This document shows, one piece after another, positions 6,901-56,448 of a stretch of 64,000 nucleotides of DNA. The first letter of the stretch is position 1. Each line of letters starts with the position of its first letter. A program made the translations under genes and the position numbers. The stretch lies in the NCBI GenBank assembly GCA_035235625.1, contig CP141141.1, positions 38,773,719 through 38,837,718 of the forward strand. Reading direction: 5' to 3'. The stretch is from Saururus chinensis (taxonomy: Eukaryota; Streptophyta; Magnoliopsida; Piperales; Saururaceae). The notes beneath the pieces were generated by a model, which ran no database searches, was not told where the DNA came from, and saw only the letters and a list, made by a program, of their open reading frames with translations.

Positions 6901-7427
6901 TGGGCTGCGTCATTGCACCCTGTGTGTTCTGGATCTTCTACAAGGCCTTCCCTCTCGGCGATGCAGACAGTGCCTACCCGGCTCCCTACGCCACTGTCTA
7001 CAGAGGAATAGCACTTCTGGGCGTTGAAGGATTCTCCTCTTTCCCGAAGAACTGCCTCACTCTCTGCCTTGTTTTCTTCCTGTTGTCATTTGCCATGAAC
7101 CTTCTAAGGGACCTCTTGATGTGGGGCAACATAAAAGCATACAAGTTTGTCCCCAGTGCAATGGCAATGGCCATTCCGTTCTACCTCGGCTCTTACTTCA
7201 CCATTGACATGTGCTTGGGGAGCTTGATATTGTTCATATGGGAGAAGACGAACAAGAAACAATCGGATGCTTTTGCCCCAGCTGTTGCATCTGGGCTGAT
7301 CTGCGGGGATGGGATATGGTCTCTGCCATCGTCTCTTTTGGCACTGCTCAAGGTTCAGCCTCCCATTTGCATGAAGTTCCTCTCTAGATCAGACAATGCA
7401 AGACTGGACAAATTCCTGACCGGTTAA
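3952..7427 (+). CDS. YSL: Yellow Stripe-Like (YSL) metal-nicotianamine transporter, copy A
   Basis: Oligopeptide-transporter (OPT) family membrane protein. YSL members move metal-nicotianamine complexes (Fe, Cu, Zn, Mn) across plasma or internal membranes. Six exons: 3952-4306, 5151-5314, 5521-5618, 5720-5854, 5989-6178, 6315-7427, all with GT-AG introns, giving 684 aa, the usual YSL length. An acidic N-terminus (residues 1-30) precedes the first membrane segments. Family motifs include [11 protein letters not shown] (59-69), [10 protein letters not shown] across the exon 1/2 junction (from 119), YPSGTATA in exon 3, [18 protein letters not shown] in exon 5 and LGDGLYHF at the start of exon 6. 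A charged cytosolic-type loop lies at about 340-385. About 14 hydrophobic segments are expected. The start MAMEV is chosen because copy B begins in the same way (MTMEA). From memory it looks closest to the AtYSL5/7/8 group, which is not certain. No disabling change was seen. Confidence 0.93.
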
Positions 7428-8690
7428 CTTCATGTTTTAACAGATGGTCTTCTGCTTGGGTGTCTTCTGCGTATATTTTACATATAGGCTCTACTTTCTA
7501 GTCTCATGTGGTGCAGCACTTTGGTTCATGGATTTGGATTTCGAAAGTTGATTTGAAATCCATGGCTTTCAAGCTCACAGATATTCGAATCCCCAGATTT
7601 CCGAAAGACTGTGCTTGTTTGCAAAGTGCATGGATGCAGAAATCCTTTAATTTGTTGTCATCATGGATTTGTTATGGCAAAGAAAAGATAAAGGAAGTTA
7701 CCATGTATTCTTATTTAGGTTTAATTAATTAGAAAAACCATAACATAACATTAACACTAACAATGCAAAGTTCTAAATTTACACTAACAACACAAAGTAG
7801 TTAGTGTTCCACAGTAATAGATCAATTTTAAACAAATTATTCCATATTAATAATTTCATTTGTCTCAATTTAAGTGGCTAAGTACTTAAAAAAAATTTAT
7901 TTACAAGGTTTTAAAATTTTGTAGTCTCGCCATTCAATAAAAATCGTTATTAATATGGGATAAAAAGAACACATAAAGTTCACTCCCTCCCTTCCACATT
8001 AATGGATCCATTTAATTTTTTAAAAATAAATTAAATAAAGATATTAATATGGGACTGAGAGTATTAAACATTGTAAGGTGTTAGTCACAAAGGGTTTTAT
8101 TCCACAATTGCACAAACCGTGGGAAAAAATATTACAGATTAACTTCACAAATTAATATTTAACTATAGAAAAATTATCACATATTAATTGGCCATAATTT
8201 ATTTGTGCAACAAATTTATCTCATAAAAATTTTAAAATATGATCCGTGGAAGTGCCCAATTTGAACACGCCACTTGGGACGATGCGTAAGAATCCGGTAC
8301 ACATTCTCACGCATTTTTCGAAGTAGCGTCATGATATGGGCACTCTCCACAACGGGGTGGGAGTGTTTCACATCTAATTTGAAGCCCATTTCCACAATTC
8401 CCAACCTGTCTACATTTTCTCATTCCTGTCTTCGCCTGATTCCCGACTCCTGAGCTTTACGAGCCCACAATATTCTGAGCCTCTCTCGTGACCTGTATTG
8501 AGTTCATACGCACATATTTGTCGGTTTTACTATATGAATGTGGCTATTCAAACCCAACTTTTATTTCTGTGTCCCCCAAAATAAACTGAAAAAGTGATTA
8601 TTATTTTCTTTTCATCCCCCATATTTCCTCCCTCAATTTGCTCATACTTCCCCTATTACATTAAATCCCACTTTTTATTTCCTGGAGATG
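7428..8690. other. Intergenic region 3' of YSL copy A
   Basis: Starts with the 3' UTR of YSL copy A. The remainder is AT-rich and holds a Stowaway-like element (7983-8061, listed separately). No further ORF is supported. Confidence 0.5.
7983..8061. mobile_element. Stowaway-like MITE
   Basis: Ends CTCCCTCCCTTCCACATTAA and TTAATATGGGACTGAGAG are inverted copies. The right flank is TA and the left is CA, probably a mutated TA duplication. About 79 bp, non-coding. Confidence 0.6.
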
Positions 8691-8699
8691 GTGACATTG

Positions 8700-9110
8700 A
8701 CTCCGACGATGACAACAACGACGACGACATTGACTCCAGTGACAACTCCAGTAGCAAGATCTGGCCTGCGTAATTAGTCCGGCCAAGCTGAATCCGGCCT
8801 GTGAACCGGATCTAGCAGCGCAGGCCATGCGTGGCCAGATCTGGTCGGCGCTAGCAGTGCGCAGCTGGAATGTATGCATGGCTAGTCCGGCCGCGCAGGC
8901 TGTGCAAGGCCAGATCTGGCCATGCACAGCGCATGCCTATGCACGGGCCTACAACCAGTCCGGCAGCGCAGGCTGTGTGAGGCCAGTGCGCGGCCAGATC
9001 TGGCCGCACAGGCCCTCTGGCTACATAGGCCCTCTGACCACGGTCGTTGCTGGCCATGGTCGCGACCAACTCGCCGTGGCCAGCGGCTACGATTAGCCGC
9101 AACGGCGAAA
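8700..9110. repeat. GC-rich block with repeated GGCCAGATCTGGCC palindromes
   Basis: An abrupt GC-rich island in AT-rich DNA. The palindrome GGCCAGATCTGGCC is perfect at 8908-8921 and 8992-9005, with partial copies at 8833-8844 and about 8757. Each lies next to GCGCAGGCTGTG or TGCGCGGCC phrases, so the block is an imperfect tandem array. Short ORFs exist on both strands but only reflect the repeats. It may be a fragment of a GC-rich transposon interior or a short segmental array. Confidence 0.65.
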
Positions 9111-9329
9111 AAAAGATGTCAGCATTGTCGCCAGCACTGGAGATGAAGAAGAAAGAGGAGAAGAAGATAAGTGAAAAAATGGAAGTGGGTAAAATGAGGG
9201 ATATGAGAGATTTTAGTTAAAGATGGCGGGGTAAGAAAGTAATGGGGGACGTAGGGATAAAAATGGGGTGTGTACGTTCTTACCATTTTTTTATTTTTCT
9301 CATGAGTATAAATATACACATCATATATA

Positions 9330-9532
9330 TTCTCTCTGTCTTATATTAATAATTATATTTAAAAAATATATAATTTTTATTAAATAATAAAACACATATC
9401 TAAGAGAAAGAAAAATAAGCTTATAATATTCTTTTTTAAGTACTCTACCACTTAAATTTAATAAAATAGAACTATTACTATTGAACAAACTTTTTTTTCT
9501 TAAATAAAGCTATTAATTGAAGATAGAGGAAG
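9330..9532. mobile_element. Stowaway-like MITE, about 200 bp
   Basis: Left end TTCTCTCTGTCTTATATTAA mirrors right end TTAATTGAAGATAGAGGAAG. TA lies on both sides (9328-9329 and 9533-9534). Interior is AT-rich and non-coding, as in Tc1/mariner MITEs. Confidence 0.65.
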
Positions 9533-9546
9533 TATTAGTTACTTGA

Positions 9547-9586
<40 letters not shown>

Positions 9587-9587
9587 G
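9547..9587. repeat. Compound (GT)n(AT)n microsatellite
   Basis: Eight GT units run directly into about twelve AT units. Confidence 0.95.
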
Positions 9588-9967
9588 ATTCTGAAAACAA
9601 CCCAATTAGCCAATTTATGTTCTAATATGCTAGTCAGTTTTTTGGTAAATATGATCCATTTTTGTTATTTCATTTGATAGTTTGACACTAATCAAATGTA
9701 ATACAATAGTTGACGCAACATAGAAAGGACAATATGCAAAATACATTTATTCACATAACACATCTGCATTTATTGTAAACACAAATGCAAGAGCCTTAAC
9801 TGTGGTGGGAAAAAATTACATAAAACACAACATAACAATCTAGACAATTATGATATGCATAGTCTATATAGCACCAACGCTATAAGATGACCCATTACTA
9901 ATCATATGCAAATATACTATTCCATGTTTCACATTTTAGTAAAAATATCACGACTCAAGGATTAGAG

Positions 9968-10417
9968 TATTGAACAAGTCTATGTATACCCCAAAAATCT
10001 CTTTAATACCCTATTTTTTATTTACTTCAAATAAAAATCTTTAGAACTCTCTTATATACCTCATAATATATGAATATTTTCTTCTTTAATTCTACCACTT
10101 TCTCCATCCTTCTCCTACACCAGAACTCTTGCTAGCCAAGTTGTCGCATACTAGCAGCTAAATCTAAGCTAGTTGCATGCTATGTAACAAACAACTCCTC
10201 TGTGTCACCAACTATTGAGAATGAGGAGGAAGAAGAAGAAGTACGTAGGACGCCACCACTATAGGAGTTGGAGGAGATATATAGTTATTTTAGTTAGGAT
10301 AATAAGTTAGAGTAACACTGAAAATTCATGGGGTTAGGAGAGCAAGTAAAAAATAATGAATAATTTAATAATATAGGGCATTGAAGGGATTTCGAGTTGT
10401 ATATGACGTGTTCAAAA
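9968..10417. mobile_element. Inverted-repeat element of unknown family
   Basis: The left end (TATTGAACAAGTCTATGTAT, then a run ending TAATACCCTAT at about 10013) reappears in inverted form at the right end (ATAGGGCATT at about 10374, then ATATGACGTGTTCAAAATA). The match extends over about 45 bp with several differences. No clear target duplication was seen, so the exact ends are approximate. Confidence 0.45.
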
Positions 10418-12210
10418 TATTCATAATATGTGAAGCTTCTCTTATAGCCTTAGTACACAAACACGAAGAGAAAAATATTAAATCATTTGTATGTGATTTT
10501 GATTTTTTTTATATCTTTTTAGAAACAAAAAATCATGAAACAAACAAGTAAATTTGGTAGTTAGAAGAATATACTATACTCCTTGCATCTCACATTAATA
10601 ACTCCACTTAGTTTATCAAAATGAACTATATTGAGTTTATTTTTGAACAATCAAATAGAGCTAATAATGTGATACTAATGATATCACTTTCATAGAGCTT
10701 ACAAATTGGTGACAACTAGTTTTGACATATAATAGACTCATTACCAAGTGGTTTCGAGGAAATCCAAAGAAATGCATATGTTGTCATGCTTTCCCCTTTC
10801 TAAAATTTCAAAAACCTCCATTGACTAGCCTTTTTTACAAATAATTTAACCCCTATTTCTTTTTCTTTCACACACTTCCAAATAGCAACTTTTCAATTCT
10901 TAAATAATGACAAAAAAATTCCACTTTTTTATCTACTCTAACACATATTATTTAAGAATTAATAAAAAAAAATTAAGGCAGTAACTATCTCGTATCAAGT
11001 CAGGCTAGGGAGTGGCTTGAAAGGCCAACCAAGGCTAGACAACAAACAACATACCACAAACCACTAGACGGAGTGACACTGACAGCAAAGGGGTAGCAAA
11101 AGGCTTAAGTTTTTTTTTTAAAAAAAGAAGCTAATAATTTTGAAATTTTAATGTAAAAAGAGGGGTATTTTTATCTTTTGTCTAATTTAGTCCTTATTTA
11201 TAAGATAAATTAAGAGTTTGAGTTATGTGTATTTCTTAAATAAAAAATATCCTTATTTGACATTGACTCAAATAAAATTATTTAATTATCTTATTTTCAA
11301 AATTGACATACAAAATAGCTTTTCACACGAGGTTATGGGGTCACATGGGCATAAGAATGACGGCTCGAGAAGGAGGAGAACTGAAGTTGGAAGCTCGATT
11401 TCTAAGATAAGTTGCACTTGTTGACTCCCTTAATAAAAATAAGTTGCTCACAGAGATTTGTCCTTTGAACATGTTCTTTTCTAGGACCAAACCTTGTTCC
11501 ACTTTGAGTGGATACAAGAAGTAAAAAGTAAGTGCGAGTGGCAGTATTATTATTAATATAGACGGAAGGAATGATAATTGATCCTAACAATAGACAATAT
11601 TGAATTTGAAAAAGAGGAGACAAATAATTCGTTTCTCACCATTAACTTTTTTCTTTTCCTAACAAGTTTGGATTGGCTGATCCTTCTCTTTACCTCGTAA
11701 GGGATAATGATAATTGATAGCGATCAACTTTTATCAAGAGATGTAGGAAATTTGATCCTGGAAGAGTCATGTCACGCATATTGTGAGGATTTGACGCTAA
11801 AGAACCCTAGTGCATCATCAAGAAGAAGCACCAGAAATTGCAGTCTCTCTATCAGTGAAGATAATGTGAACGCCTAGAATGTGTCAAAAACAGTAGAACG
11901 GAGCTGAATATCTTGAGGTGCATGGGCCAAATGAGTCCCAAATAGATAGAACCCTAGTGCCTTGGATGTGTAACAATGTGAACACACTCTGTTGACGGTC
12001 CATCTTCCATTGGTTGACATTGGACTGTGGCCCAATTGGCCCTACCTAAGCTTGTCTTCACGGCACATTTAGTCCAGTTTTTAATACAAGACACATCTGC
12101 TCTGCAGGGCTGCTTGGTTTGGCTTCTGGTGGACTGAAAATATATATATTTTCTTGCACATGGGTGAACATGAAAATTCTTATCCAGTTTCTAAGTTTTT
12201 ATCTCGGATA
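10418..12210. other. Intergenic, repeat-like, no gene seen
   Basis: AT-rich DNA with no supported gene. A Stowaway-type half element begins near 10579 (CTCCTTGCATCTCACATTAA) but its matching right end is not clear. Confidence 0.45.
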
Positions 12211-12213
12211 GTG

Positions 12214-12365
12214 ATAGTATCACAATAAAAATACTTACTTATACAAGTGTTTTGATTGAACTTTACAAGTAGGTCCTACACAAAATTTATATAAGTTTAC
12301 TTATTTAAACCAATCAAAATTTATGTATAAATTTTTTATGTATATTTTTGATGTGAAAATATTAG
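12214..12365. mobile_element. Small foldback MITE, family X, copy 1
   Basis: Left end AGTATCACAATAAAAATAC is mirrored by right end TATTTTTGATGTGAAAATATTA, and the inner parts (TTATACAAGTGTTTTGATTG and CAATCAAAATTTATGTATAA) also pair. Two relatives with the same plan lie at 25711-25870 and 28526-28682. No transposase; superfamily not determined. Confidence 0.5.
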
Positions 12366-12837
12366 TATTTTTCACTGATATGCAACTTCCCATTACTTTA
12401 TAATGATAAATCACTTATCCTTATCATGAAAACTAGGGGCTAGACATATCCACTGTGAAATTGAGTTGCATGTCCACGTCTGGAAGTTTGGTGCCATCTT
12501 GTGAGCGTGGAATTGATACGTTTAAAAATCATGTTCCCAAAAAGACGAAAAGCTGACTTCTTGGTCTGATCATTGATCATGGTTCACACCTTATTACATT
12601 ACACCAATATTTGGTTTCTTTAATTAACAAAATTGGGGGATATGACAAGTATTTTAATGTGACACCCACCGTACCCTTTTAAGTAATAAAAAAAGGAAGC
12701 ACTACATGTGACAATGTGACCCATGGTGCACTTTTTAATCATGCTCCCCTTCATAAAAGGCACCCACAATGTGCAGCTTTGTGTGTTCACACTTTTTGAA
12801 TGTGCCCAGTCCCATGACTCCCAAAAGATCCCAATCT
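12366..12837. other. Intergenic, no gene seen
   Basis: No ORF or clear repeat is supported here. It lies directly before the promoter-homologous stretch of YSL copy B. Confidence 0.4.
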
Positions 12838-13507
12838 GTTGATTGCTTTCACAGAATCACAAGGAAAACAAAGCAAAGTGGACCTTGCCCAGTTTCTAAC
12901 GGTGGAACTAAATTGTCCCCTCCAACTTGTGTTGTATACTCGAACTAGGAAACCAATCTCTTGTCTCTCCCTCCCAAAACAAGACCCCAAAACCGCGCGG
13001 AACCTCTGCCCGTTTACTCCAGGCTAGCGAACAGAAACAAACACGGTTTTGGCCTGTGAATTCCATCAACTCTGAGTTGGAACTTTCCGTGATTAGACCC
13101 CAGATTGGCAGCCAGAACCAGACTTTTGACAACCGGGGCAATGGGGCCCCATCAAACCAAGGGTGGATCAGTCAGGAACAGCAGATTCTGCAGATACCTT
13201 GGAGAGTCAAAAGATGTGAAGCGTGATACCCGGGGTGGCTCTTCATATATAGTAATATAGCGGTAGAAAGAGCCTGTGGTGACTGTGATTCAGGATCAGG
13301 CAGGAAGGAAGGAAGGCCTTCTCCTCGTACAACTCAGCCTCTTTGAATTCCTTGAGCCAAACCCGGAAACCAACCCAAGTCCCTCTCCTCTCCTTTCCAT
13401 ATTTCCTGGTACGGATACAAGCCGAGGTTCATGCTTATATAAGCACCAGGCACCCCCACCTAGCACCGGGAGCCTTTTGACACTCTGTACGCGGGACAGC
13501 AGAGGTG
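12838..13507 (+). promoter_or_regulatory. Promoter and 5' leader of the second YSL gene
   Basis: Two TATA candidates: TATATA at 13246-13251, which is the positional match to the TATA box of copy A, and TATATAAG at 13436-13443, only 65 bp before the ATG. Blocks shared with copy A are GAACTAAATTGTCCCC (about 12905), CCATCAACTCTGAGTTGGAA (about 13062), ATCAAACCAAGGGTGGATC (about 13151) and TTGGAGAGTCAA (about 13199). The extra ~110 bp next to the ATG is missing from copy A and supplies the second TATA box. Confidence 0.6.
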
Positions 13508-16500
13508 ATGACCATGGAGGCGAGGGAGAGGCGGGAGGAGGGGGAGAGGGAGAGGGAGCCCAGCGTGGAGGAGATCTTCGAGGCCAAGAGGGTGCCCTCA
13601 TGGAGGGAGCAGCTGACCTTCAGGGCCTTCGTGGTGAGCTTCGTGCTGGGGGTGTTCTTCAGCTTCATTGTCATGAAGTTGAATCTCACCACCGGTATCA
13701 TCCCCTCCCTCAACGTGGCCGCCGGCCTGCTCGGCTTCTTCTTCGTCAAGATCTGGACCACTCTGCTCGAGAAGTCCGGCCTCCTCAAACAGCCCTTCAC
13801 CCGCCAGGAGAACACCGTCATTCAGACCTGCGTTGTTGCCTGCTATGGCATCAGCTTCAGTGGTATGTTCCTATTTCAATGTCATGAAATCCAATGCATG
13901 TCTCTTCATCTCAAATCCTGTTTTCTTCCCCTATAATCAGTCATTTGATTATTTCCTTATTCGATCGATTATGTTTCAATTTGTTAATCTTTTTCTTCCA
14001 CAAAAACAAAACAGAAAAATTGCTTGCCATTACAATCTTTTCTATACAAATACAAGTACATCTTATTCATGTTCCTCAATAGATTAAAAATTTTGTCATA
14101 TCTTTTGTTCTGTGAAAGAAATTTGTGGATCTAATTGGGTTTTGTGGAGAGATAACTTTTGCGTTTAGATCTTGTCTTCTATTGCCAAGTTGCTTTAATG
14201 GGGTCGGTCATACAGAGAGGCCAAGTTTCTTTAATGGTGGCCATGGCCGAGAGCTTGGCCTACGCGCGTGCCTTTTGCACGTGTCTTTGTGTGCAGAATG
14301 CTTTGGTTGGGCTTGGCCATGCACAGAGAATCAATAATTGCTTTCATTGACGGTATTGACCTTTGAAATCTAGCATTTGTCTTTTTTTAGGTTTTTCTAT
14401 TATTAGGGCTATATTGTCTTTTTAGCGGTATGTGTTAATTTTCGGGTTTCCAGTCGCTTGACCGCAATTAAAAACGCTAATTACGGTTATGATTTTGGGG
14501 TGTCACGCCTAAAACCCATCTAATTTAAGAAGTCCTGAAAATTTGGACGTTATTTCCGGATCTTCTTCTTCTTCACCCATTTATGCTTACGATTTGATCT
14601 TATGAAGATTCTCACTTATCTAAGTTTTGTCTATTCAGTGGGAATCTCTGATTGGTTCATGCCCAATTAAAACGACCCGTTTACCCTCCATTTATTCTTT
14701 AAATTACTTCTGAGTTAATTAAGAATAATAATTGAATTAATTAAAGCTAAAAAGTATGATTTGCATGTCAATATGTCATAAGAACTAATGGAATTGATTA
14801 CAGCTAAAAAGTGTGATTTGCATAACATGGTGCAGGCGGTTTTGGGAGTTACATACTGGGTATGAGCCAGAAGATTGCAACCAAGGCAGGAGAAGGTGAC
14901 ACTCCCATTAATGTCAAGAACCTTTCTCTGGGATGGCTAATTGGATTCATGTTTGCTGTGAGCTTTGTTGGGCTCTTCTCCATTGTCGCTTTGAGAAAGG
15001 TGCATGCTTAAAATCTTGTTCTAGATTTACTTCCATTCCATTTGTTAATCCTGCTGAATTAGCATTTCTCTTAAGTACTCCATTATAATTTATAACTAAT
15101 TTAATTATGTCTTTATTGATATATACTGTTTCTTTGCTAACTATGGTATCAAAAAATTCCTACTCTGCTGTTTGTATGTAGATTATGATCATCAGGTACA
15201 GGCTGAGTTATCCCAGTGGAACTGCAACTGCGCTCCTCATCAACAGCTTCCATACCCCTGCTGGTGCCAAACTAGCCAAGTAAATTCTTCTTTGGCCAGA
15301 CCCTCTTGCTGCTTGAGCCCTGTAAAATACTTCTTATTCTCTCAAATCTGATCCAATTGTTGCATTTTCTGCTGTACCAGGAAGCAAGTGACTGTTCTTT
15401 TCCGTACATTTGGGGGAAGCTTTGTCTGGGCCTTCTTCCAATGGTTCTTCACTGCTGCAGATGGTTGCGGTTTCAACAATTTTCCAACATTTGGCCTCAA
15501 GGCCTACGATAACAAGTAAGAAATCTGTAGTGTGCCTGCTACTAAAACTGCCTGATTCTTGCTCAAGCATTGTTCTTATGTGAAAAAACTGTGTCACTTC
15601 TGCAGATTCTACTTTGATTTCTCAGCCACCTATGTTGGTGTTGGCATGATCTGCCCTTACATCATCAACATCTCCCTGCTTCTTGGGTCAATAGTATCTT
15701 GGGGAATCATGTGGCCTCTCATTGAGAAAAAGAAAGGCGATTGGTACAGTGCAGAACTCAGCCCTTCCAGCCTCCATGGTATCCAAGGCTACAGGGTACG
15801 TACACCCTCCCGGAATCCTTTCTTGCTGCTCTGTTCATCAAGCAGTATCATGGTTTTGATCTGAATGTTGTTACACAGGTATTCATCACCATCGCTGCCA
15901 TCTTGGGCGACGGGCTCTACCACTTTGCTGCTGTGGTAATCAAGTCCATCCTGGACATGACCAAGAGGTCTGCTGCTGTTAAGAGGGACACATCTGTGAC
16001 CCCATTTGCTGACAGAAACTCGCCTGATACCAGAGACCTCAGCTATGATGACCAAAAGCGCACTGAAGTCTTCCTCAAAGGCCAAATCCCCCACTGGGTC
16101 GCCCTGGGAGGCTACGTAGGACTTGCCATCATCTCCATCATCACGGTCCCAGTCATCTTCCCCCAGTTGAAATGGTATCATGTGTTGGTGACATACATCA
16201 TCGCCCCTGTCATGGCCTTCTGCAACTCGTATGGTTGTGGTCTCACCGACTGGTCCCTCGCCTCCAGCTACGGCAAGCTGGCCATCTTCATCTTCGGTGC
16301 ATGGGTGGGCATGTCCAACGGAGGCGTCCTCGCTGGCCTCGCCGCCTGCGGTGTCATGATGAGCATCGTCTCCACCGCTTCCGATCTCATGCAGGACTTC
16401 AAGACTGGCTACCTCACCCTAGCCTCGCCCCGTTCCATGTTCGTCAGCCAAGTCATCGGCACAGCCATGGGCTGCGTCATTGCACCATGTGTGTTCTGGA

Positions 16501-16994
16501 TCTTCTACAAGGCCTTCCCTCTCGGCGATGAAAACAGTGCCTACCCGGCACCATACGCCACCGTCTACAGGGGAATAGCACTTCTGGGCGTTGAAGGATT
16601 CTCGTCTCTCCCCAAAAACTGCCTCACTCTCTGCCTCGTTTTCTTCCTGTTGTCATTTGCCATGAATTTGCTGAGGGATCTCTTGCAGAGGGGCAACATA
16701 AAAGCATACAAGTTTGTCCCCAGTGCAATGGCAATGGCCATTCCGTTCTACCTCGGCTCCTACTTCACCATTGATATGTGCTTGGGGAGTTTGATTCTCT
16801 TCATATGGGAGAAGACGAACAAGATTCATGCCAATGCTTTTGCACCGGCTGTTGCATCTGGTTTGATTTGCGGGGATGGGATATGGTCTCTGCCTTCCTC
16901 TGTTTTGGCACTGCTCAAGGTTAACCCCCCCATTTGCATGAAGTTCCTCTCAAGATCAGATAATGCAAGAGTGGACACTTTCCTGACTAGTTAA
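13508..16994 (+). CDS. YSL: Yellow Stripe-Like (YSL) metal-nicotianamine transporter, copy B
   Basis: Tandem paralogue of the YSL gene about 6 kb upstream, with the same predicted role in moving metal-nicotianamine chelates. Exons: 13508-13862, 14836-14999, 15182-15279, 15381-15515, 15606-15795, 15879-16994. The first five exons have exactly the lengths of copy A (355, 164, 98, 135, 190). Exon 6 is 3 bp longer because of one extra valine in the cytosolic loop (SAAVKRD against SAAKRD). The product is 685 aa. All OPT/YSL motifs of copy A are kept. Differences cluster in the acidic N-terminus, the exon 4 loop (ADGCGFNNF against GENCGFNSF) and the C-terminus. An in-frame ATG two codons downstream (13514) has the stronger ACCATGG context and could be the true start. 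No stop or frameshift was seen, so both copies appear functional. Confidence 0.93.
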
Positions 16995-17481
16995 CTTCAA
17001 GTTGCAGCAGACAGCTAATGGATGCACCTTTTCTTTTGCCTTATATAAAATATTTGTATATAGGATCTAGTTACTAGTCTCATGTAATGCCCTTCTTTGT
17101 GTTGGCAATGCTTTGTTCTTAAAGAGAGCTAAAGAAAGCACCCAAATTCCTTAAACTTCAAAATTTATCCAAGTAATCTATTGTTGCTATTATAATCTGT
17201 GCTAATCTTTGAAAGTGGTTTATCGATAACAATTATCTCCCAATTCTTCAAAGTATGCACTGCGAACTACTTAAATTTGAGCAGAAGGTCAATATATTTT
17301 TATTTTGGTAAGAAAGAGGCGCTTTGTTTGTGAACTTCTCCCCCGGTTATTTACAAATGCAAACACAGCATGATGATTATCGCGGTAAGTTATAACGACA
17401 AAGTGATTAATGTGAACAATACATGTTATTGTCATCCAAGAACATCACCTCATTCAGAGTTCAGCAGGACAAATCAGAGTA
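16995..17481. other. 3' UTR of YSL copy B and spacer
   Basis: AT-rich, no ORF. Ends at the terminal GGGTCCG of the large palindromic element pair. Confidence 0.5.
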
Positions 17482-20400
17482 GGGTCCGTTTGTTTACCTT
17501 AATCAGCGCTTACCTGATTAAGTATCTTATAAGTTAGGTAAAAGCCGGCTTATAAGCTTGTTTGTTTTAAGCTTATTTTTTATCCGATTAAGTTAAAAAA
17601 TTAAGCCCACGTTATTCGGAAATAAGATAGGTTTTACAGGCTGATTTGGCTGAAAATAAATCGCGAACCCGATTCACCTCCTCCATCTCTGAAGCCCTTT
17701 CCATGGCGTCGCCTGCTTTCCATTTTGGCGCCTTCGACTCTCCTCGCTACCTGCTTCGTCCCGGATTTATCTGCTCATAAGCCATCCATTCCTCTTCAAG
17801 CAACAGTCGCTTCCCCCTATCATGTCGCTACACTCTGTCACTGTTGCTACCTCTCATCGCTGCCTGCTTCAACCCGGATTCATCTCGATTGTTCACCCAG
17901 CATCTTGCTAGTGAATCTGCAGCATCTCGCTAGGATTACTCACCTCCAGCTCTCAGATCATATGTGGTGTTTTCGCCCTAACCTCTTTGTCAGATTCACT
18001 GCATCAAGCTCTTTGTTCTTCTTGTTTTTTTGGTAAGTTCCTTTTCCGCTTACTCATGGTCTGCAATTGCAATTAAGTTAGAAAGTCAGACATCTCTGTC
18101 AGAGTCCCGATGTGTTTACAACTTTTTGAGCTTTAGGGTCTCGATGCCCACTTCCCAATTCTGCAAAGGTAAATCATTTCCCTTCTTCCGTTTGAATCTT
18201 TGATCTCCTTTCTGTTCGGTATTCCCATAATCGCCTACAATTGAGGCCTCTGGTGGCATAAAGTTTTTATATTTGAGGAAGGTGTTGTGTCGTTAGGGTG
18301 CTTGTGGAAATGTTTCTTGCGCTACTTTGACTTAATAAGCTAATGTTCGAGCTTCTCTTCTTTGTTGTAGTATTGCTTCTTTGTTTCCGCTCTGACCTTG
18401 GAAATCTAGCTTTGTTTCGTGAGCTGGGTTTTCACTGTTTTGCTGCTTCTTTGCCCCGAAAACTTCAATTGCCAGTATTTGCTTATTCAAGTTTTTCACT
18501 TACAGTTGCCGAAAACTTCTTTGGTGCAATTGATGTGTAAGCATGGCAGAATTCATAATGTGATGAGCCTGAAAAATCATGTATTGATCGAACATTTGTC
18601 AATTGCAGTATATAACAGTCTTTTATTTCATCTATTTCAGAATAGACATATTTTTCCTGCTATGAAACTTTTGGTTGAAATTATCATTGTCTGCAGTTAT
18701 TTTTTCCTTCTTTGAACTTGGCATCTGCATATGCAAAAAGAGAAGCTATTGCTCCAACCCCTCTTAGGGTTGCTTTGAGCAAATTGTGGGAGCTTATGCA
18801 ATTCCTTCGCTATGAATCAAATCTCCCTTGGCGAAGATTTCAACGAGATAGCATAGATTTGAGAAAAGAAAAGAATTGTACAAATGGATTTTCAGTTAAG
18901 AGATAGTATATTGTGCTGGTCCTACAATATTGGCAACCAGTTTTTTGCTCCTTGGGGAACATGTTATTGTTTATAATAAAGGTGCTTTTGCATACATTTT
19001 CCGGTATATAGTTAAATGCTTTCTCAAGCACATAGCTCTTGTTACCAAATCACAAGACACTCTTCCTTTGGATTTTTAATCAAGAGAAAAAATCAAATTA
19101 AAGCCTTACAGTGGAGTCCTCAACATTGACTTTGGAAAAGGGATTGGAAAGAGAGACGTTTATTTGCTGTAAGTTATAAAAATTTGTACACCAGTTTAGT
19201 TTTTTAGAGGAAGAATGTTACATTCATCAGGTATGATTAATGAATATGACCTATATCTTCGACAATATGTATTTATGTTGCTTCATTATGAATCTATGCT
19301 GTCAAATAAGAGTTTAGGAATGGAATTATAACTTTTGCTCAGTTAAAGCAAGAAACTCATTCGTAAAAATTGATGGGAGCCATGAAATTGTCAAGTGACA
19401 TGATTGAACTATAGTTATTACCATTTTACCTGGTTCAAACTCCAAACTGATTTCACGTTTGGTTAATATTACGTTTGATTGAAAAGCATATTATTCTAGT
19501 ACGTGATAGATGTAAAAGATAAAATTAAATTATAAGGAAAGTGTGAATGGGTTGGTTTGCAAAAAATAGTCTGCTTTGCAATGAACTGGCTATGTCTGGC
19601 TTATTGAATGCTCACATTAGACTAGAAAAGTGGTGATGTAAACGGGTTAAATTATCTATTCAATTCCATCTTTCAAAACACTGACTGATATTCATATGAG
19701 GTGCTCTGGTAAAAATAGCTTTGAATTGACTTGGGCTACAATCTTATGTAGTACGGTTTCTATGTGAAAGAATTCTGATGGAAACCAATTTGAAGAATTT
19801 TTGTGCGCAGCTATACAGTAGAGTTTTTAAAAAAGGAGAAATACAACTAAAAAAGTTGTTTACTGTAGAAGGAGATTAATTTATGTACGGAGTGCAATTT
19901 ATATTTTGATTGCAGTAATATGTACGGAGTGCAATTTATATTTTGATTAATTTATATTCTTGGGATCTCCTAATTAAAAAAAATGCTATCCTTTATAATG
20001 TTCAATAATTTTTATGAGAGCTTGAGTTGGACTGTATCTTTGTTAATTTATATGGTGTATCTTGACCATTGGACATAGCTAGGATAATCATTGGTGAAAT
20101 AGACTGAAAACTATTATTTCACCATTCGACATGTTGACTTGGTTAATGAATAATTTGTCCTAAATGCATAAAGAATTGTGTTTTATGCTGCATTGTTGCT
20201 GAAGTTGGTAGCTATGACCAGTAAGACCCTTGCCAATTTTATTTGTGCTTTTATATGCTGCTAACTTGCTTTTTGTTCTACATGCAAGGTAGCGCTGTAT
20301 AAGGGACGTATATTCTTCAATTTGGTTCCAGATATAGGTACTCATAAATCTGGTCCTATGGCATGTCTTATGGTATCAAAGGGATGGAGGGGGCCGGGCT

Positions 20401-20797
20401 TGATCGGGCTTCTTTATTTTATGTGTAATTAGTGTATCAAATATTTTGGCAACAATGTGTAATGACTAATGAGTGATATCAATTGAACACAAGAGATAAT
20501 GATGTTTTATTCCTTTTCTTTTTATTTTGAAAAGGAATGGATCCTAGAATTAACTGAGGTCAACTTTGTCACGTTGAAGCTTAAATTGAAGATGCAAGTT
20601 GTAGTTTTTGATCATTTATGAACGTCCTAACCAGTTTATAAACGTCTCTTGATTCCGATTTAAATTCAGCTAATTCAGCTCCAGATTCAGTTTCAGATTA
20701 GCTAATTCAGTTTCAGATTCAGCTAAATCAGATAATTAACTTTTCAGCTAATTAAGATAACTTTTCATATTCAGATTCAGCCAAAACAAACGGACCC
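17482..20797 (+). mobile_element. PIF/Harbinger-like non-autonomous element, left arm
   Basis: Ends are GGGTCCGTTTGTTT and its inverse AAACAAACGGACCC, of the GGG-N-GTTTG type typical of PIF/Harbinger and Tourist elements. The subterminal right end is packed with ATTCAG/CAGCTAATTCAG motifs. Flanks are GTA on the left and TAG on the right, which share only TA, so a proper 3-bp duplication is missing. No recognisable Harbinger transposase or Myb-like ORF is encoded. The interior is gene-like (listed separately). Strand is set by that gene-like content. Confidence 0.7.
17703..18906 (+). pseudogene. Unrecognised spliced gene-like sequence inside the left arm
   Basis: A GC-richer stretch starts ATGGCGTCGCCTGC at 17703, after a leader of plain 5' UTR type, and reads open to a good donor (GGTAAGTT, about 18031). 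A second exon-like piece ends at AAAG/GTAAAT (about 18169). A third follows CTGCAG at about 18695 and encodes ASAYAKREAIAPTPLRVALS and then KLWELMQFLRYESNLPWRR, ending at a TAG (18904-18906). I do not recognise the protein. It could be a captured host-gene fragment or a remnant of the element's own gene. Codon use and splice sites argue that it once was coding; it is listed as a fragment because no full product can be assembled. Confidence 0.4.
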
Positions 20798-20864
20798 TAG
20801 CCTCATCTTAAAAGTTAAAAGCCGTCAAGTCATTTACTTGACTTGAAAATAAAAAAGAGACTAA
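20798..20864. other. Spacer at the centre of the large palindrome
   Basis: 67 bp between the two mirrored arms. It contains TTAAAAGTTAAAAGCC, resembling CAAAAGTTAGAAGCC just beyond the right arm (about 24188-24202). The spacer may therefore be a copy of the sequence flanking the right arm. Confidence 0.5.
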
Positions 20865-23800
20865 GGGTCCGTTTGTTTCGGCTGAATCTGAATCTGAAAA
20901 GTTATCTTAATTAGCTAAAAAGTTAATTATCTGATTTAGCTGAATCTGAAACTGAATTAGCTAATCTGAAACTGAATTTGGAGCTGAATTGGCTGAATTT
21001 AAATTGGAATCGAGAGACGTTTATAAACTGGTTAGGACGTTCATAAATGATCAAAAACTACAACTTGCATCTTCAATTTAAGCTTTAATGTGACAAAGTT
21101 GACCTCAGTTAATTCTGGGATCCATTCCTTTTCAAAATAAAAAGAAAAGGAAAAAAACATCATTATCTCTTGTGTTCAATTGATATCACTCATTAGTCAT
21201 TACACATTGTTGCCAAAATATTTGATACACTAATTACACATAAAATAAAGAAGCCCGATCAAGCCCGGCCCCCTCCATCCCTTTGATACCATAAGACATG
21301 CCATAGGACCAGATTTATGAGTACCTATATCTGGAACCAAATTGAAGAATATACATCCCTTATACAGCACTACCTTGCATGTAGAACAAAAAGCAAGTTA
21401 GCAGCATATAAAAGCACAAATAAAATTGGCAAGGGTCTTACTGGTCATAGCTACCAACTTCAGTAACAATGCAGCATAAAGCACAATTCTTTATGCATTT
21501 AGGACAAATTATTCATTAACCAAGTCAACATGTCGAATGGTGAAATAACAGTTTTCAGTCTATTTCACCAATGATTATCCTAGCTATGTCCAATGGTCAA
21601 GATACACCATATAAATTAACAAAGATACAGTCCAACTCAAGCTCTCATAAAAATTATTGAACATTATAAAGGATAGCATTTTTTTTAATTAGGAGATCCC
21701 AAGAATATAAATTAATCAAAATATAAATTGCACTGTATATTATCAGCAATCAAAATATAAATTGCACTCGTACATAAATTAATCTCCTTCTACAAGAAAC
21801 AACTTTTTTAGTTGTATTTCTCCTTTTTAAAAACTCTACTGTATAGCCACAAGACAAAAATTCTTCAAATTGGTTTCCATTAGAATTCTTTCACATAGAA
21901 ACCGTACTACATAAGATTGTAGCCCAAGTCAATTCAAAGCTATTTTTACCAGAGCACCTCATATGAATATCAGTCAGTGTTTTGAAAGATGGAATTGAAT
22001 AGATAATTTAACCAGTTTACAGCACCACTTTTCTAGTCTAATGTGAGCATTCAATAAGCCAGACATAGCCAGTTCATTGCAAAGCAGACTATTTTTTGCA
22101 AACCAACCCATTCACACTTTCCTTATAATTTAATTTTATCTTTTACATCTATCACGTACTAGAATAATATGCTTTTCAATCAAACGTAATATTAACCAAA
22201 CGTGAAATCAGTTTGGAGTTTGAACCAGGTAAAATGGTAATAACTATAGTTCAATCATGTCACTTGTCAATTTCATGGCTCCCATCAATTTTTACGAATG
22301 AGTTTCTTGCTTTAACTGAGCGAAAGTTATAATTCCATTCCTAAACTCTTATTTGACAGCATAGATTCATAATGAAGCAACATAAATACATATTGTCGAA
22401 GATATAGGTCATATTCATTAATCATACCTGATGAATGTAACATTCTTCCTCTAAAGAACTAAACTGGTGTACAAATTTTTATAACTTACAGCAAATAAAC
22501 GTCTCTCTTTCCAATCCCTTTTCCAAAGTCAATGTTGAGGACTCCACTGTAAGGCTTTAATTTGATATTTTCTCTTGATTAAAAATCCAAAGGAAGAGTG
22601 TCTTGTGATTTGGTAACAAGAGCTATGTGCTTGGGAAAGCATTTAATAGAATACCGGAAAATGTATGCAAAAACACCTTTATTATAAACAATAACATGTT
22701 CTCCAAGGAGCAAAAAACTGGTTGCCAATATTGTAGGACCAGCACAATATGCTATCTCTTAACTGAAAATCCATTTGTACAATTCTTTTCTTTTCTCAAA
22801 TCTATGCTATCTCGTTGAAATCTTCGCCAAGGGAGATTTGATTCATAGCGAAGGAATTGCATAAGCTCCCACAATTTGCTCAAAGCAACCCTAAGAGGGG
22901 TTGGAGCAATAGCTTCTCTTTTTGCATATGCAGATGCCAAGTTCAAAGCAGGAAAAAATAACTGCAGACAATGATAATTTCAACCAAAAGTTTCATAGCA
23001 GGAAAAATATGTCTATTCTGAAATAGATGAAATAAAAGACTGTTATATACTGCAATTGACAGATGTTCAGTCAATACATGATTTTTCAGGCTCATCACAT
23101 TATGAATTCTGCCATGCTTACACATCAATTGCACCAAAGAAGTTTTCGGCAACTGTAAGTGAAAAACTTGAATAAGCAAATACTGGCAATTGAAGTTTTC
23201 GGGGCAAAGAAGCAGCAAAACAGTGAAAACCCAGCTCACGAAACAAAGCTAGATTTCCAAGGTCAGAGCGGAAACAAAGAAGCAATACTACAACAAAGAA
23301 GAGAAGCTCGAACATTAGCTTATTAAGTCAAAGCAGCGCAAGAAACATTTCCACAAGCACCCTAACGACACAACACCTTCCTCAAATATAAAAACTTTAT
23401 GCCACCAGAGGCCTCAATTGTAGGCGATTATGGGAATACCGAACAGAAAGGAGATCAAAGATTCAAACGGAAGAAGGGAAATGATTTACCTTTGCAGAAT
23501 TGGGAAGTGGGCATCGAGACCCTAAAGCTCAAAAAGTTGTAAACACATCGGGACTCTGACAGAGATGTCTGACTTTCTAACTTAATTGCAATTGCAGACC
23601 ATGAGTAAGCGGAAAAGGAACTTACCAAAAAAACAAGAAGAACAAAGAGCTTGATGCAGTGAATCTGACAAAGAGGTTAGGGCGAAAACACCACAGATGA
23701 TTTGAGAGCTGGAGGTGAGTAATCCTGGCGAGATGTTGAAGATCCACTAGCGAGATGCTGGGTGAACAATCGAGATGAATCCGGGATGAAGCAGGCAGCG

Positions 23801-24167
23801 ATGAGAGGTAGCAACAGTAACAGAGTGTAGCGACGGGATAGGGGGAAGCGACTGTTGCTTGAAGAGGAATGGATGGCTTACGAGCAGATGAATCCGGGAC
23901 GAAGCAGGTAGCGAGGAGAGTCGAAGGCGCTAAAATGGAAAACAGGCGACGCCATGGAGAGGGCTTCAGAGATGGAGGAGGCGAATCGGGTTCGCGATTT
24001 ATTTTCAGCCAATAAAACCTATCTTATTTCCGAATAACGTGGGCTTAATTTTTTAACTTAATCAGATAAAAAATAAGTTTAAAACAAACAAGCTTATAAG
24101 CCGGCTTTTACCTGACTTATAAGATACTTAGTCAGGTAAGCGCTGATTAAGGTAAACAAACGGACCC
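20865..24167 (-). mobile_element. PIF/Harbinger-like non-autonomous element, right arm
   Basis: Mirror copy of the left arm, with ends GGGTCCGTTTGTTT and AAACAAACGGACCC. It is flanked by a perfect TAA on both sides (20862-20864 and 24168-24170), the expected 3-bp PIF/Harbinger target duplication. This arm therefore looks like the original insertion, and the left arm lacks such a duplication. Confidence 0.8.
22752..23955 (-). pseudogene. Unrecognised spliced gene-like sequence inside the right arm
   Basis: Mirror copy of the gene-like stretch in the left arm. Its start ATG is at 23953-23955 and the last exon ends at 22752. The last exon (KLWELMQFLRYESNLPWRR) is unchanged at the protein level relative to the left arm. 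The first exon has small indels and substitutions. Confidence 0.4.
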
Positions 24168-24170
24168 TAA

Positions 24171-25710
24171 GTCAATTGGTCGCCAACAAAAGTTAGAAGC
24201 CACACATGACTTGTACTAAACATTTTAAATTCCAGTTTTTTTATTCACATTTTTTTTTTATTTTGATAAATATAACAATAGCCTTGTTGGTAGTGTTGTG
24301 GACCTCTTTACCTCATTGGTTAAAAACTAGTAAAAAAAAGAAAATAATAGTTACTCTTTCTACGGCATAGTCATACTCCAGCTTCTTAATCATACTCTGA
24401 GAAAAGTGAATCCTTCCATTGGAAGGTGAGACTCACCTTTTTTAGTTTTTTTAGTGAGTCTAATTAAAAGCTGGAGTAAGATTTTAATATAAAGATAATA
24501 AAATAAGAATATCATCTTCGGCAAAAAAAAAAAAAAAACTATATGAGTTAGGGGCCAAAAATGTAACCCATTCTCTGATGCTTACGGTTAGCTTAAGTGA
24601 AATGTGACAGTAACATACGCCAATAAGTGCAAACGCAAATATAAGAACGGAAATAAAATAGTAAAATGGCAACTATGTGCCTTATTATAAATTATTAATA
24701 AAAAATAAAAAATAGCCAAATACTGGAGTCTACTCTATTATTCTCTAAACAAAACCATCTATCTGCTACTCTGATTTTATCAAAAAAGTGCATTACTTAA
24801 AAACCCTGAAGGGAACATGTTAATACTCATTTTCACCAATACTCAGTTTATGCTTATTCGAAAAAAGAAGTTTCCCGGATTTACATGCCCTTAAGGGAAC
24901 ATGCTAGAAGATAAACTCTTTCAAGCTTTGAATCTATAATGAGCGAACCAAATCAGTAGACAAACAGCGTGCTTTATTAATTATAAGCATACCCTGGAAT
25001 GGGAGCAAGATGTGACATCACAGTTGCCAAATATATTCCGGAAGCCATTGTGATGACCGGCAGGGTCAACAAAGGATTGCGATATTTGAGCGGAAACTAG
25101 CAAGAGAGCCATCAGAATTAAAGCGTTCATGAAAGTCTCTTGGAATTATAGATCTCAAGAGAGCATCGATGAAAGACTCTCGGCATTAGAGTCAGAGATG
25201 CTCAAGAGATCAAGATGAACATCAAAACTAAACCTACTCACATAAAAAAGGCTAATCTGTGGTAACAAAAGACATGATGACCTTCTTCCTCTCTTTACTC
25301 CACCTCTCAACCCCACTTTTTCTGGCCTACCCCACCTCTCGCACATGTTACAACTTCATTAATGATGGTCTTTAACATAGGAGCTATTAAATTTTTTAAT
25401 TTATTTATAAACTTTAATTTTAAAAGGTATATTCATAAAGATTTTCAACTCCTTAAAAGTTAAAATCAAAAATAAATTTTAATTTTACTTGATTCTAAAC
25501 TTTATCTAACATTGAACAAAACTGACTTCTATTAATGGTAACTCACCCCTTTGACTATCCATAGATAAGTCAACTAACAGCTGACACGCACAAATATATA
25601 AATAAACATATATAATGCATAGTGTATGGCAAAGCCTAAGACCACATTGAGTAGCTTTGCCCTAGTACGAGAGAGTGTTTCTAACTATCAACTTGAAACC
25701 ATTTGTAGGA
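24171..25710. other. Intergenic with a short MITE
   Basis: No supported gene. A Stowaway-like element at 24376-24476 is listed separately. Around 25128-25190 there is a short imperfect direct repeat (ATGAAAGTCTCT and ATGAAAGACTCT). Confidence 0.45.
24376..24476. mobile_element. Stowaway-like MITE, about 100 bp
   Basis: Perfect ends CTCCAGCTT and AAGCTGGAG, flanked by TA on both sides (24374-24375 and 24477-24478). The interior holds further small palindromes (CCTTCCATTGGAAGG, GTGAGACTCAC). Confidence 0.65.
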
Positions 25711-25870
25711 AAATATTTTCACATCTAAAGCACATATCAAAAACTCACACATGAATATTAATTGGTCTAAATTAGTAAGTTCATGTGAATTTTGTATTGG
25801 GTCCACTTGTAAAGTCTAATTAAAATACATGTGTGAATTTTTGTGGGTATTTTTTGTTGTAAGAATATTA
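25711..25870. mobile_element. Small foldback MITE, family X, copy 2
   Basis: Ends AAATATTTTCACATCTAAAG and TTTTGTTGTAAGAATATTA are inverted relatives. The inner parts AACTCACACATGAATATTAA and TTAAAATACATGTGTGAATT also pair. Same plan as the elements at 12214 and 28526. Confidence 0.5.
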
Positions 25871-26764
25871 CTATTCTTTGTTAAATCTAGCTAGTCGCAT
25901 ATTCCTAGTTTTCTGACTTCCTGTGCTACTTACCAAAACTATATTTTTCAACCAAAAAAAAAGGATGTGGGATAGATTTTAAGGCCTCACCATCTTGTTC
26001 TTTGTCCAATCACTATGTTCTTGCTATGAAAATATATTTGCATAAATGGAGCTATTTAGTCTTTTGATCTACTGTATAGAGATAATACTTAGTTAACAAT
26101 TTACAAATGCCCAATTTACAGCATCACATTGCATGCTACGTTTCAACACTTATACTCAAAACCAAAGATGTAAAGATCCAAGAGTTTTTTCCATATTACC
26201 TGACCTAAGATACAAATATTTCATATTCCCTAGTTTTGTAAAAAACATTCTACCGAACTTAGGTTTACACAAAATAGACCAAAATATCCTTTCAACAAGG
26301 ATTGGGTTAAAAATCGTGTAAACTAGTTGTGACAAAGCATAAACAAAGAGGAGATCGGAGCTCAAAGATGATTTGTGATTTTCGCCCGGCAGTTTTCATC
26401 AACAACAAATTCCGATTTCTATTCGGCAATTGTCGGCCTCCCTCACTTCATCGGCGATCGTTCTCTAATTTTTGTCCAAAAAATTCTAACCACAAACTAT
26501 TTATCATTACAAAAGGAGATCAAGATGATACTGCAACTCAAAAAATGAATCTTGAGGGATTATCTAGGGAGAACATGGATATATAAGAGGGACTCTAGTA
26601 TAATTGTAGAATCGCTATGATAGCCTCCTACCCTATTGTGCAAAGAGGGACTCTAGTATGATTTTTTATATGCAAGTTTTACTATGTAGAACATCTTATG
26701 TAAGCATATACACGATCTCAGAGGTTTTTATCCCTGACTTGATGAACAATTGTATAAATAACAA
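25871..26764. other. Intergenic, no gene seen
   Basis: AT-rich. Short ORFs are present but show no family resemblance or splice-site support. Confidence 0.4.
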
Positions 26765-30804: not shown

Positions 30805-31945
30805 ATAAGGTTGTCTAGCTGGCATTGCAACTTCAGCGCTAGGTGTGTTCATAGATTTTCATTGTCCGAATGTTTGTCCGTATCCGTGTTCATTTTTATA
30901 TGAAATAAACAAATTTTTTTGTCCAGGCCGGACATGGATAAAATTTTTTATCCGCACTAATAAGGAGCTACAGACACGGATATACCCTTGTCCGTGGGAC
31001 TGTGTCTGTGGACGTCTGCCACTCTTACTTAACATTTTCTTAAATATAGTAATAATTATTATTAATTATTAGAAGAAAAAAAAATTAAAATTCAATTCTT
31101 ATGTAATATTTTAGGACAGTCCTAACATGCTACATAGGCACTTGACTACATAAAAACATGAATTCAGTACCTATGTAGTATGTTAGAACAGTCCTAACAT
31201 GCTACATAGGTACTGGATAGTTTGAAAATATAAATTCATAATTTATATAGCATGCTAGGATAATCTTAATATATTGCATAGGTATTAAATAACTTGAAAA
31301 CATAGATCTAGTAAATATGTAACATGTTAAGACAACTTTTACATGCTATAAAAGTGCTAAATTTTTTAAATAAAAATAAAAATTTAGGTGTTGAAATATT
31401 TGTCCATGTCCGTCTGTGTCCGTAACGGATGGACTTGAATAAAGTATAATACAAACTAGGACGGACACGGACAAGAGTTATTCAAATGACGGACAGACAC
31501 AGATAACCCTCTGTCCACGTTCATTTCCGTTCGTGAACACCCCTATTCAACGTTGGCTAGCCCCCTTACCAAAGGGCAAGTCATCAATGAAGTTACAACG
31601 CTCCCTAAATTTCTCCTTTGTATCTAAGCAACATAATAGGCACAAAAAATTTACTTTTTCCTATTATTTCTAAGTTGGTTAATACTAATAATTAATTTAG
31701 TACACATGCGATCAGTATAACCTGATAATTATAGCCTAAATTTTCATTTATTGGATAATTAATAATGATTAATTTCATGTTTTCAGTTACCAAAAAAATG
31801 AAATCAATATTGTTTTCAGCCATGGTAACCCCCAGTCCCGCTATCCGCCCTGCCACCCCAAACTCCATAAAAAACAAAATAAAAAAAACTGACATATAGG
31901 AAAACGAAAATAATCCTAGCGTAGACGACATCACAGAATGCTAGT
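30805..31945. repeat. Direct duplication, unit 2, split by a hAT element
   Basis: Starts AGGTTGTCTAGCTGGCATTGCA. It is interrupted at 30840 by a 706-bp hAT element and resumes at 31546 with the same order as unit 1 (TTTCTCCTTTGTATCTAAG, GCGATCAGTATAACCTGATA, GCCACCCCAAACTCC, GACATCACAGAATGC). Duplication therefore preceded insertion. Confidence 0.7.
30840..31545. mobile_element. hAT-type non-autonomous element, copy 1
   Basis: Ends TAGGTGTGTTC and GAACACCCCTA with 8-bp flanks TTCAGCGC (30832-30839) and TTCAACGT (31546-31553), a target duplication with two changes. Subterminal regions are packed with GTCCG/CGGAC motifs (GGACACGGACA). The middle has imperfect repeats of TAACATGCTACATAGG. No transposase. 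Related to the element at 61398-62292 in opposite orientation. Confidence 0.75.
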
Positions 31946-41791: not shown

Positions 41792-41800
41792 TAATTTATT

Positions 41801-43580
41801 GGGAAATTACTTAAATAATAATTAAAAAAAATATTTACTACTTTGGACTACTGGGAAATATTTTCCAAAGTGGTGTTCCTTTTTGCCACACAGGTGCTAG
41901 TCAAGCAACTGGTGTCTGCGTGACTTTTAAAAAAATTTAGCTAATTTTGTTGTTTAGAAGGACAAAATCACCTTAAGGCAATTTCGTCCTTCTAAACAAC
42001 GAAATTGCCATGACTTGTTCTTACTAGTCTCTATTTGTGACTAGATCAGGGCTTACAAGCTACAGTCACCAAGCAACTCGAGTCAAATCATGGATGTTGG
42101 GGGCAACCCGCGGCGGCCGGGGGGAGTGGCGACTGACGCATGAAGCAATTTAATAAACAAGACCAGGATCCATGAACTCGATCCAATCTCTGGCATGCGC
42201 TTCCAATTGTTGTGACGATGAGACTCATGCTCTTCACGATGCAAGCATTTTTTAATGCTCTTATTTACTGTGAGCTTAAGAAACACTTGAAGGCAGTTCA
42301 TCTACTATATTGATAGTATACACGTTACCATATTAAGCTGGGTTTATGGTGAGAAAAGGAATTGTCGAGGAGGGAGCTCATCTGGTAACTTCAAGCGGCA
42401 GTGGGTCCCTTAATGGATGCAAAATAGGGACATCACATCCCGTAACCCTTTATCGTCAGCCTTACATGCATTTGGAGAAAGGTAACGATCAAAACGACAA
42501 AATCACCATACTTATATACATTTGGAAAGATGAACAGTAAGTTTTATTTTCCTGTGCTGCAGATCAACGATGACCAATGAGACTATGGCTGGCCACTTGT
42601 GCACAATTTAAGTAACTATTCCCCAAGTCCACATGGCGCTAATGTCATTATTGTTTCTGTAGTCTTCCTAGCATAATTGAAGTCCAAGAGATATTTGATT
42701 GACAATCTTCTAATCAAAGAACGATGGGTTGAAATTTATAAGCACTGAACGAAGTGCATATATTCAAGGAGGCAGATAAGAGATTGTTTGAAGGAATCCG
42801 ATCTGAAGGACACAGTAGCATCGAAGCTGACAGACAACAATCTACTCATTGCCTGGTTTGGCTGCTCACATTTATAGAAGAGAAGACGACTGCCAACAGA
42901 ATAATGTGTAAACAAGTGCGACTTTTTGGAATTTTTATTCTAGACTAAAGGTATTTATCAATGGGATATGTATACAAACATGTTTGATTTATATGTGCTA
43001 CGTAGATTAGGCTCTCTAGAAAATGATTATAACCTTTTTTTTAAATAATTATTACGGTAAATCCTTTTTTTTATGTAAAGAAACCCTAAACAAATACCCA
43101 AAGTACGACAAATGAGGATAGCCTTATTACAGTTTGTCATAAGAGACGGATAGCCTAATTTATAGGAGATGCCTCGGGAGTATAACCGTTTGTGTTTGTC
43201 ATCTACCATCGAGATGCTCTTTTGTTGCAACATCCCTGCTCTCATCGGCTCGATGATGCCAGCGAGATCATGCAGATGTCTATCCGGCAGAGCAACAATA
43301 GCTCCATACTTTTTTTTTAAATTAATATGATTTCGTCCTTTAGAAGGACGAAATCGGGTTAAGTTTTATAAACTTTAACCCGGTTTCGTAGTCTAGAATG
43401 ACGAAATCAACTTAAACCTGATTTCGTCCTTCTAAATGACGAAATTAGCTAAAATTTTTATATAAAAAAAAGTCATGCAGGCACCAGCTGCTTGGCTGGC
43501 GCCTGCATGGCAAAAAGGAACACCACTTTGGGAAATATTTCCTAAAGTGGTAAATATTTTTTTATTTAAATAATTTTCCC
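41801..43580. mobile_element. Non-autonomous MULE, 1.8 kb
   Basis: Ends GGGAAATTACTTAAATAAT and ATTTAAATAATTTTCCC, with a perfect 9-bp target duplication TAATTTATT at 41792-41800 and 43581-43589. Terminal repeats contain the motif order GGGAAATATTTTCC, AGTGGTGTTCC, TTTTTGCCAYRCAGG, then hairpins of the GATTTCGTCCTTCTAA type, all shared with the large MULE at 52371-59273. The interior (about 42060-43300) has no transposase and no gene I recognise; a GC-rich scrap (CCCGCGGCGGCCGGGGGG, 42109-42126) could be captured DNA. Confidence 0.85.
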
Positions 43581-52361: not shown

Positions 52362-52370
52362 TACTAACAT

Positions 52371-56355: not shown

Positions 56356-56448
56356 ACATATAATCAATCTATTTATTTATTCTCTCTTTTAGGTATGATA
56401 AAAATGTTCCTGATGAATAATGATGTGATCTTAATTCTCCGTCCGCAG

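Follow-up and report, generated by a model that had tools for sequence, protein, structure and literature searches.

A 6.7-kb palindrome in Saururus chinensis composed of two inverted PIF/Harbinger-like elements with seemingly unequal target duplications

The 6.7-kb palindrome described here lies within a 64,000-nucleotide stretch of Saururus chinensis DNA (the window) and is best explained as two copies of one non-autonomous PIF/Harbinger family, each inserted by ordinary cut-and-paste transposition; we put the probability of this reading at roughly three in four. Two complete elements would have inserted with opposite orientations and 67 bp between them, the pair standing approximately 490 bp past the end of an OPT-domain transporter gene, and the palindrome would be a by-product of the two insertions. 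The element type is an ordinary one, in an uncommon-looking arrangement.

Comparison of the region with the window by BLAST returned an inverted self-match at 17480-24169, on opposite strands, with 97.2% identity (E = 0), a figure in which each difference is counted twice because the alignment passes through the left arm, the spacer and the right arm. The inverted repeat is far beyond chance, and the palindrome of mirrored elements reported in the initial annotation is thus real. It consists of a left arm of 3,316 bp (17482..20797, minus strand, reversed with respect to its partner), a spacer of 67 bp of non-element DNA (20798..20864) and a right arm of 3,303 bp (20865..24167, plus strand), as delimited by arm alignment and, for the arms, by their exact terminal inverted repeats (TIRs). 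The initial annotation had suggested that the arms be aligned for identity and indels; the global alignment spans 3,317 columns and contains five indels of 3, 1, 1, 1 and 9 columns (15 in total), which leaves 3,302 ungapped columns; 70 of these are substitutions, 51 of them transitions and 19 transversions. Identity is 97.9% when gap columns are set aside and 97.4% when they are counted, and the longest identical run is 361 columns. "Near-perfect" is a generous term for 97.9%. The K2P distance between the arms is 0.0216. Plant substitution rates of 1.3e-8, 6.5e-9 and 2.6e-9 are in use for dating, and under these assumed rates the arms would be approximately 0.8, 1.7 or 4.1 million years old if they began identical. 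The proposal that the pair is recent or maintained stands for its first half in a relative sense (2.1% substitutions); maintenance, as discussed below, we consider very improbable. Elsewhere in the window, the arms have no other match of substantial length.

Long inverted repeats are prone to fold-back or collapse during assembly or library making, and such an artefact could in principle produce a palindrome of this kind. The arms are, however, separated by 70 substitutions and five indels, mirror symmetry in the flanks gives out a base or two beyond the TIRs, and the 67-bp spacer is itself not mirrored; an artefactual origin is accordingly given a very slim chance.

An identical 14-bp TIR, GGGTCCGTTTGTTT, is present without mismatch at all four element ends: at the outer and inner ends of the left arm (17482..17495, plus strand, and 20784..20797, minus strand) and at the inner and outer ends of the right arm (20865..20878, plus strand, and 24154..24167, minus strand). 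Beyond the TIR, the two ends of the element diverge. Hallmarks of PIF/Harbinger elements, as set out in a section of PMC2213677, are TIRs of 14-25 bp with a G(N)5GTT motif and a 3-bp TTA/TAA duplication; a TIR of at least 14 bp carrying this motif was found at each of the four ends. In table 2 of PMC6327408, ZmPIFa of the maize PIF group is listed with the TIR GGGCCCGTTTGTTT and the target duplication TTA, and our TIR is the same at 13 of 14 bases. The right arm's 3-bp duplication, TAA, likewise resembles that of the PIF group (maize PIF/mPIF and ZmPIFa), in which TTA/TAA is usual. Because the TIR resembles that of ZmPIFa and the right arm carries a TAA duplication, assignment of both elements to the PIF/Harbinger group is supported, in agreement with the identity first proposed for them, although no transposase domain was recognized. 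They differ from the PIF group in that no transposase or ORF1 was recognized in the domain search of the right arm and in that the left arm does not show a TWA target, and from mPIF in size (364 bp versus 3.3 kb here). A second likeness, drawn from the TIR alone, is to MtPH-A6 subfamilies 1 and 3 of Medicago truncatula, whose consensus TIRs start with GGGTCCGTTTG and have the first 11 bases in common with ours, whereas base 12 is G there and T here; subfamilies 2 and 4, as given in that source, do not have this 11-base start (PMC2213677). Among the members listed in tables 2 and 3 of PMC2213677, 8 of 9 in subfamily 1 and 13 of 16 in subfamily 3 are without coding capacity, as these elements appear to be. 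A 26-base end pattern was found in no stretch of the prokaryote genome and viral contig collections, where a plant transposon is not expected.

The coding content of the right arm was assessed in six read-through frames. No transposase domain was found in Pfam at E up to 0.1, nor any match at or above the curated cut-off, and a search of the same frames against the PDB gave no match at E 0.001. Four weak Pfam matches at E up to 0.1 were treated as noise: DUF6585 (E 0.00044, 20.1 bits against a cut-off of 27.7) and Treslin_N, Col_cuticle_N and YebU_pre-PUA_dom (E 0.041-0.097). A captured gene or transposase in the right arm was rejected on the strength of these six frames without a Pfam match at the curated cut-off. 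Only two stop-to-stop frames of at least 130 aa occur in the arms (136 and 133 aa), and neither looks like a gene. As a positive control, three read-through frames of the MULE region of the window were searched, two of which gave transposase-related domains (DBD_Tnp_Mut in one; MULE, Transposase_mut and SWIM in another); the control transposase belongs to the MULE superfamily rather than to PIF. This region (52968-56400) contains MuDR/MULE-type transposase remains and lies beside a 186-bp tandem repeat. A DDE transposase, which is a feature of autonomous PIF/Harbinger members only, was thus not recognized in the right-arm frames, and because of this we file the elements as probably non-autonomous and PIF/Harbinger-like.

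The flanks of the two arms differ in a manner that bears directly on their origin. In the standard register, the right arm is bounded by TAA/TAA (inner copy 20862..20864, outer copy 24168..24170), a clean duplication, and the left arm by GTA/TAG, as the initial annotation had described. The right arm lies in a GAC-TAA...TAA-GTC context, in which the flanks are complementary over 3+3 positions; such flanks occur at only 93 of the 3,461 TWA sites of the window (2.7%), and for this reason the symmetry modestly supports a single normal insertion of the right arm. A preference for an extended 9-bp target is reported for mPIF and PIF in part of PMC6327408; a literature search for the 9-bp maize PIF target motif found it in no paper. 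The right copy would have entered at a GACTAAGTC site and duplicated its TAA. For the left arm, the flanks match only as TA/TA when nothing is changed. When nine boundary registers were tried, a shift of the left boundary by one base gave a TAG/TAG match, and among the single-base insertions tested across the 16 bases of the left junction, an added G within the G run was the only one to yield flanks that match the inner TAG; this insertion keeps the TIR intact. Loss of a single G at the outer end of the left arm can therefore, on a reading picked among the nine registers, explain the unequal flanks: the putative duplication would comprise TAG at 20798..20800 on the inner side and TAG at 17480..17482 on the outer side, where the loss of one G would make it share the first G of the TIR. 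On this account a TAG site would have received the left copy, and the G would have been dropped from the outer G run later or during joining, so that the left duplication now looks unequal.

TAG nonetheless departs from the usual TWA and remains an unusual site. A non-TWA target duplication, ATA, is in print for OsPIF2 (in the element listing of PMC6327408). With mPing, in the experiments described for that element, TAC/TAC flanks nearly abolished excision, and by analogy a changed third target base may make a poor site. The outer and inner flanks of the left arm (17473-17495 and 20784-20806) are partly complementary past the TIR (87% over 23 nt, TIR included), which may hint at a symmetric target. 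An inversion of the spacer was tried and rejected; it gives GTA/TTA and CTA/TAA, no better a match of target duplications.

The whole 6.7-kb pair might instead have moved as one composite transposon by its outer ends, with the outer TA(A) as its target duplication and the inner flanks brought from the donor. TA is common to the outer flanks, and an outer TAA/TAA would presumably require one lost A. The outer flanks match over these 2 bp only, however, and a target duplication of the palindrome as a whole was rejected for having just the TA in common; the GAC-TAA/TAA-GTC symmetry, moreover, suits a right arm that inserted alone. We consider movement as a single unit very unlikely.

The initial annotation had favored a different history: one normal insertion, that of the right arm, and then an inverted copy that became the left arm, made either in the course of aberrant gap repair or by alternative-end transposition. 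The mismatched 3-bp flanks of the left arm in the standard register and the 97.9% identity of the arms are in keeping with this account. It would require, however, that the copied unit both start and stop at the TIR cut sites with unrelated spacer between, when such copying would be expected to take flank along or to halt inside the element. Mirror homology ends two bases past the outer TIR ends (BLAST self-match) and one base past the inner TIR ends (repeat search). The annotation had also pointed to a phrase of the spacer that resembles the outer flank of the right arm. This phrase exists: AAAAGTTAAAAGCC at 20810 corresponds to AAAAGTTAGAAGCC at 24188, a match of 14 bases, AAAAGTTA(A/G)AAGCC. 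It stands in direct rather than inverted orientation in spacer and flank, and 8 shuffles out of 1,000 (single-base) attained its alignment score in what was one of six comparisons, which makes it only weakly significant; the backing that it was thought to lend to inverted copying thus falls away, and it could reflect an old small tandem duplication or chance. The best inverted match, an 11-mer rich in A, had a score that 32 of 1,000 shuffles attained, the remaining four comparisons had scores reached in 271 to 614 of 1,000 shuffles, and in the six comparisons together no convincing mirror similarity among flanks and spacer was found. One insertion followed by inverted copying is accordingly disfavored by homology that ends at most two bases past the TIRs, by the availability of a matched TAG reading and by the direct phrase, and we judge it unlikely.

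The distribution of differences along the arms points in the same direction. Seventeen of the 75 difference events sit in three runs of at least four within 6-nt steps, a number reached in none of 20,000 uniform random placements (maximum 14), and such clustering is more in keeping with two members of one family, each with its own history, than with a single copy that has diverged by point mutation. Eight of the 17 clustered events form one run adjoining an internal 30-nt repeat. This duplicated motif is present within both arms (19882-19948 and 21714-21776), beside the densest run of arm differences; its two 30-nt copies are identical in the left arm, but in the right only 21 nt are. With the events merged to 54 clusters, neither their dispersion (p 0.07) nor the longest clean stretch (p 0.10) showed divergence along the arm to be significantly uneven, and for this reason no gene conversion tract is claimed.

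Two insertions are therefore favored because mirror homology halts within two bases of the cut sites, a TAG/TAG reading exists, the phrase is direct and the differences are clustered, yet none of this evidence over inverted copying is decisive. Template switching in one lineage, or change in the internal 30-nt repeat, could also give clusters; two opposite insertions 67 bp apart are a coincidence unless insertion is locally biased; and the matched TAG reading needs both a lost base and an off-TWA target. If two insertions did occur, the second copy may derive, by a hop over a short distance, from the first or from a close relative, and transposase supplied from elsewhere is assumed to have mobilized both in trans.

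Two OPT-domain transporter genes stand in tandem on the plus strand (3952-7436 and 13508-17003), the second of them with the palindrome about 490 bp downstream. They are 84-92% identical in matching blocks, and we take the pair to be YSL-like. Homology between the two genes ends at 7436/17003. A paralogous empty site was sought by comparing 17004-17481, 24168-26500 and the spacer with 7437-13300. A 28-bp match (E 3e-5) occurs at matching distances behind both genes (55-82 and 46-73), and from this one match some 3′ homology appears to persist. On the right side, matches of 121 bp (E 8e-13) and 63 bp (E 2e-4) lie about 1.5 kb past the palindrome and are read as a dispersed repeat; a further match of 25 bp had E 0.008 and the other rows E of at least 0.1. 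Because no match in the 3′ DNA of these genes spans an insertion point, the comparison yielded no paralogous empty site. Other repeats of the window include a dispersed family of at least four copies (41800-42006, 43322-43551, 52370-52654 and 58902-59270), rich in the inverted motif GATTTCGTCCTT...AAGGACGAAATC and with some copies self-complementary, and a 72-bp tandem repeat array (61577-62016), to which a shorter array on the other strand, at a distance of 30 kb (31080-31413), is related. The window contains no Rfam match and no tRNA gene.

Of the 3,283 21-mers of the right arm, 2,274 have an exact match on the reverse-complemented left arm, so that RNA transcribed through both elements could pair into a long double strand. 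Read-through transcription could in this way feed siRNA-directed methylation, and hairpin silencing at the locus is possible, as judged from sequence. Because the arms contain no recognized transposase sequence, any siRNA would be expected to hit non-autonomous copies and shared ends. In a review, opposite-orientation TE copies adjacent to one another are described as a source of hairpin RNA (Model 2 of PMC10004981); the arrangement here is similar in that copies of one element stand side by side in opposite orientation, and it differs in that LTR retroelements are named in that model whereas these are DNA transposons known from sequence alone.

The initial annotation had likened the locus to Mu killer of maize, and the likeness holds for the inverted duplication, large and adjoining a gene in both cases (PMC3440606). 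It fails for the transposase: in Mu killer, part of a single MuDR derivative is duplicated in inverted orientation, transposase sequence included (PMC3440606), whereas the locus here comprises two complete, separate elements, with the inverted duplication present and transposase unrecognized in the right arm. For want of recognized transposase sequence in the arms, the comparison is a loose one. In the passages of PMC3440606 that deal with transcripts, effective silencing by Mu killer is tied to short antisense transcripts, and read-through sense transcripts are found in non-silencing plants; the authors leave room for a contribution of longer transcripts by way of a hairpin. A locus maintained by selection for its hairpin, in the manner of Mu killer, would be consistent with the 21-mers shared in reverse complement and with a same-strand transporter gene some 490 bp upstream, but the lack of recognized transposase sequence in the right arm and the short antisense transcripts of Mu killer itself make such a history very unlikely. 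Similarly improbable is the combined proposal that the left arm arose by transposase-driven inverted copying (alternative-end or sister-chromatid transposition) and that the hairpin silences the family in trans.

If inverted copying were true after all, the locus would be a direct example of DNA transposons making natural hairpin silencing loci. As an ordinary pair, the elements matter mainly as a candidate source of a long hairpin beside a transporter gene, and they illustrate how a target duplication could seem to be missing after the loss of a single base, in what is otherwise an ordinary transposon arrangement.
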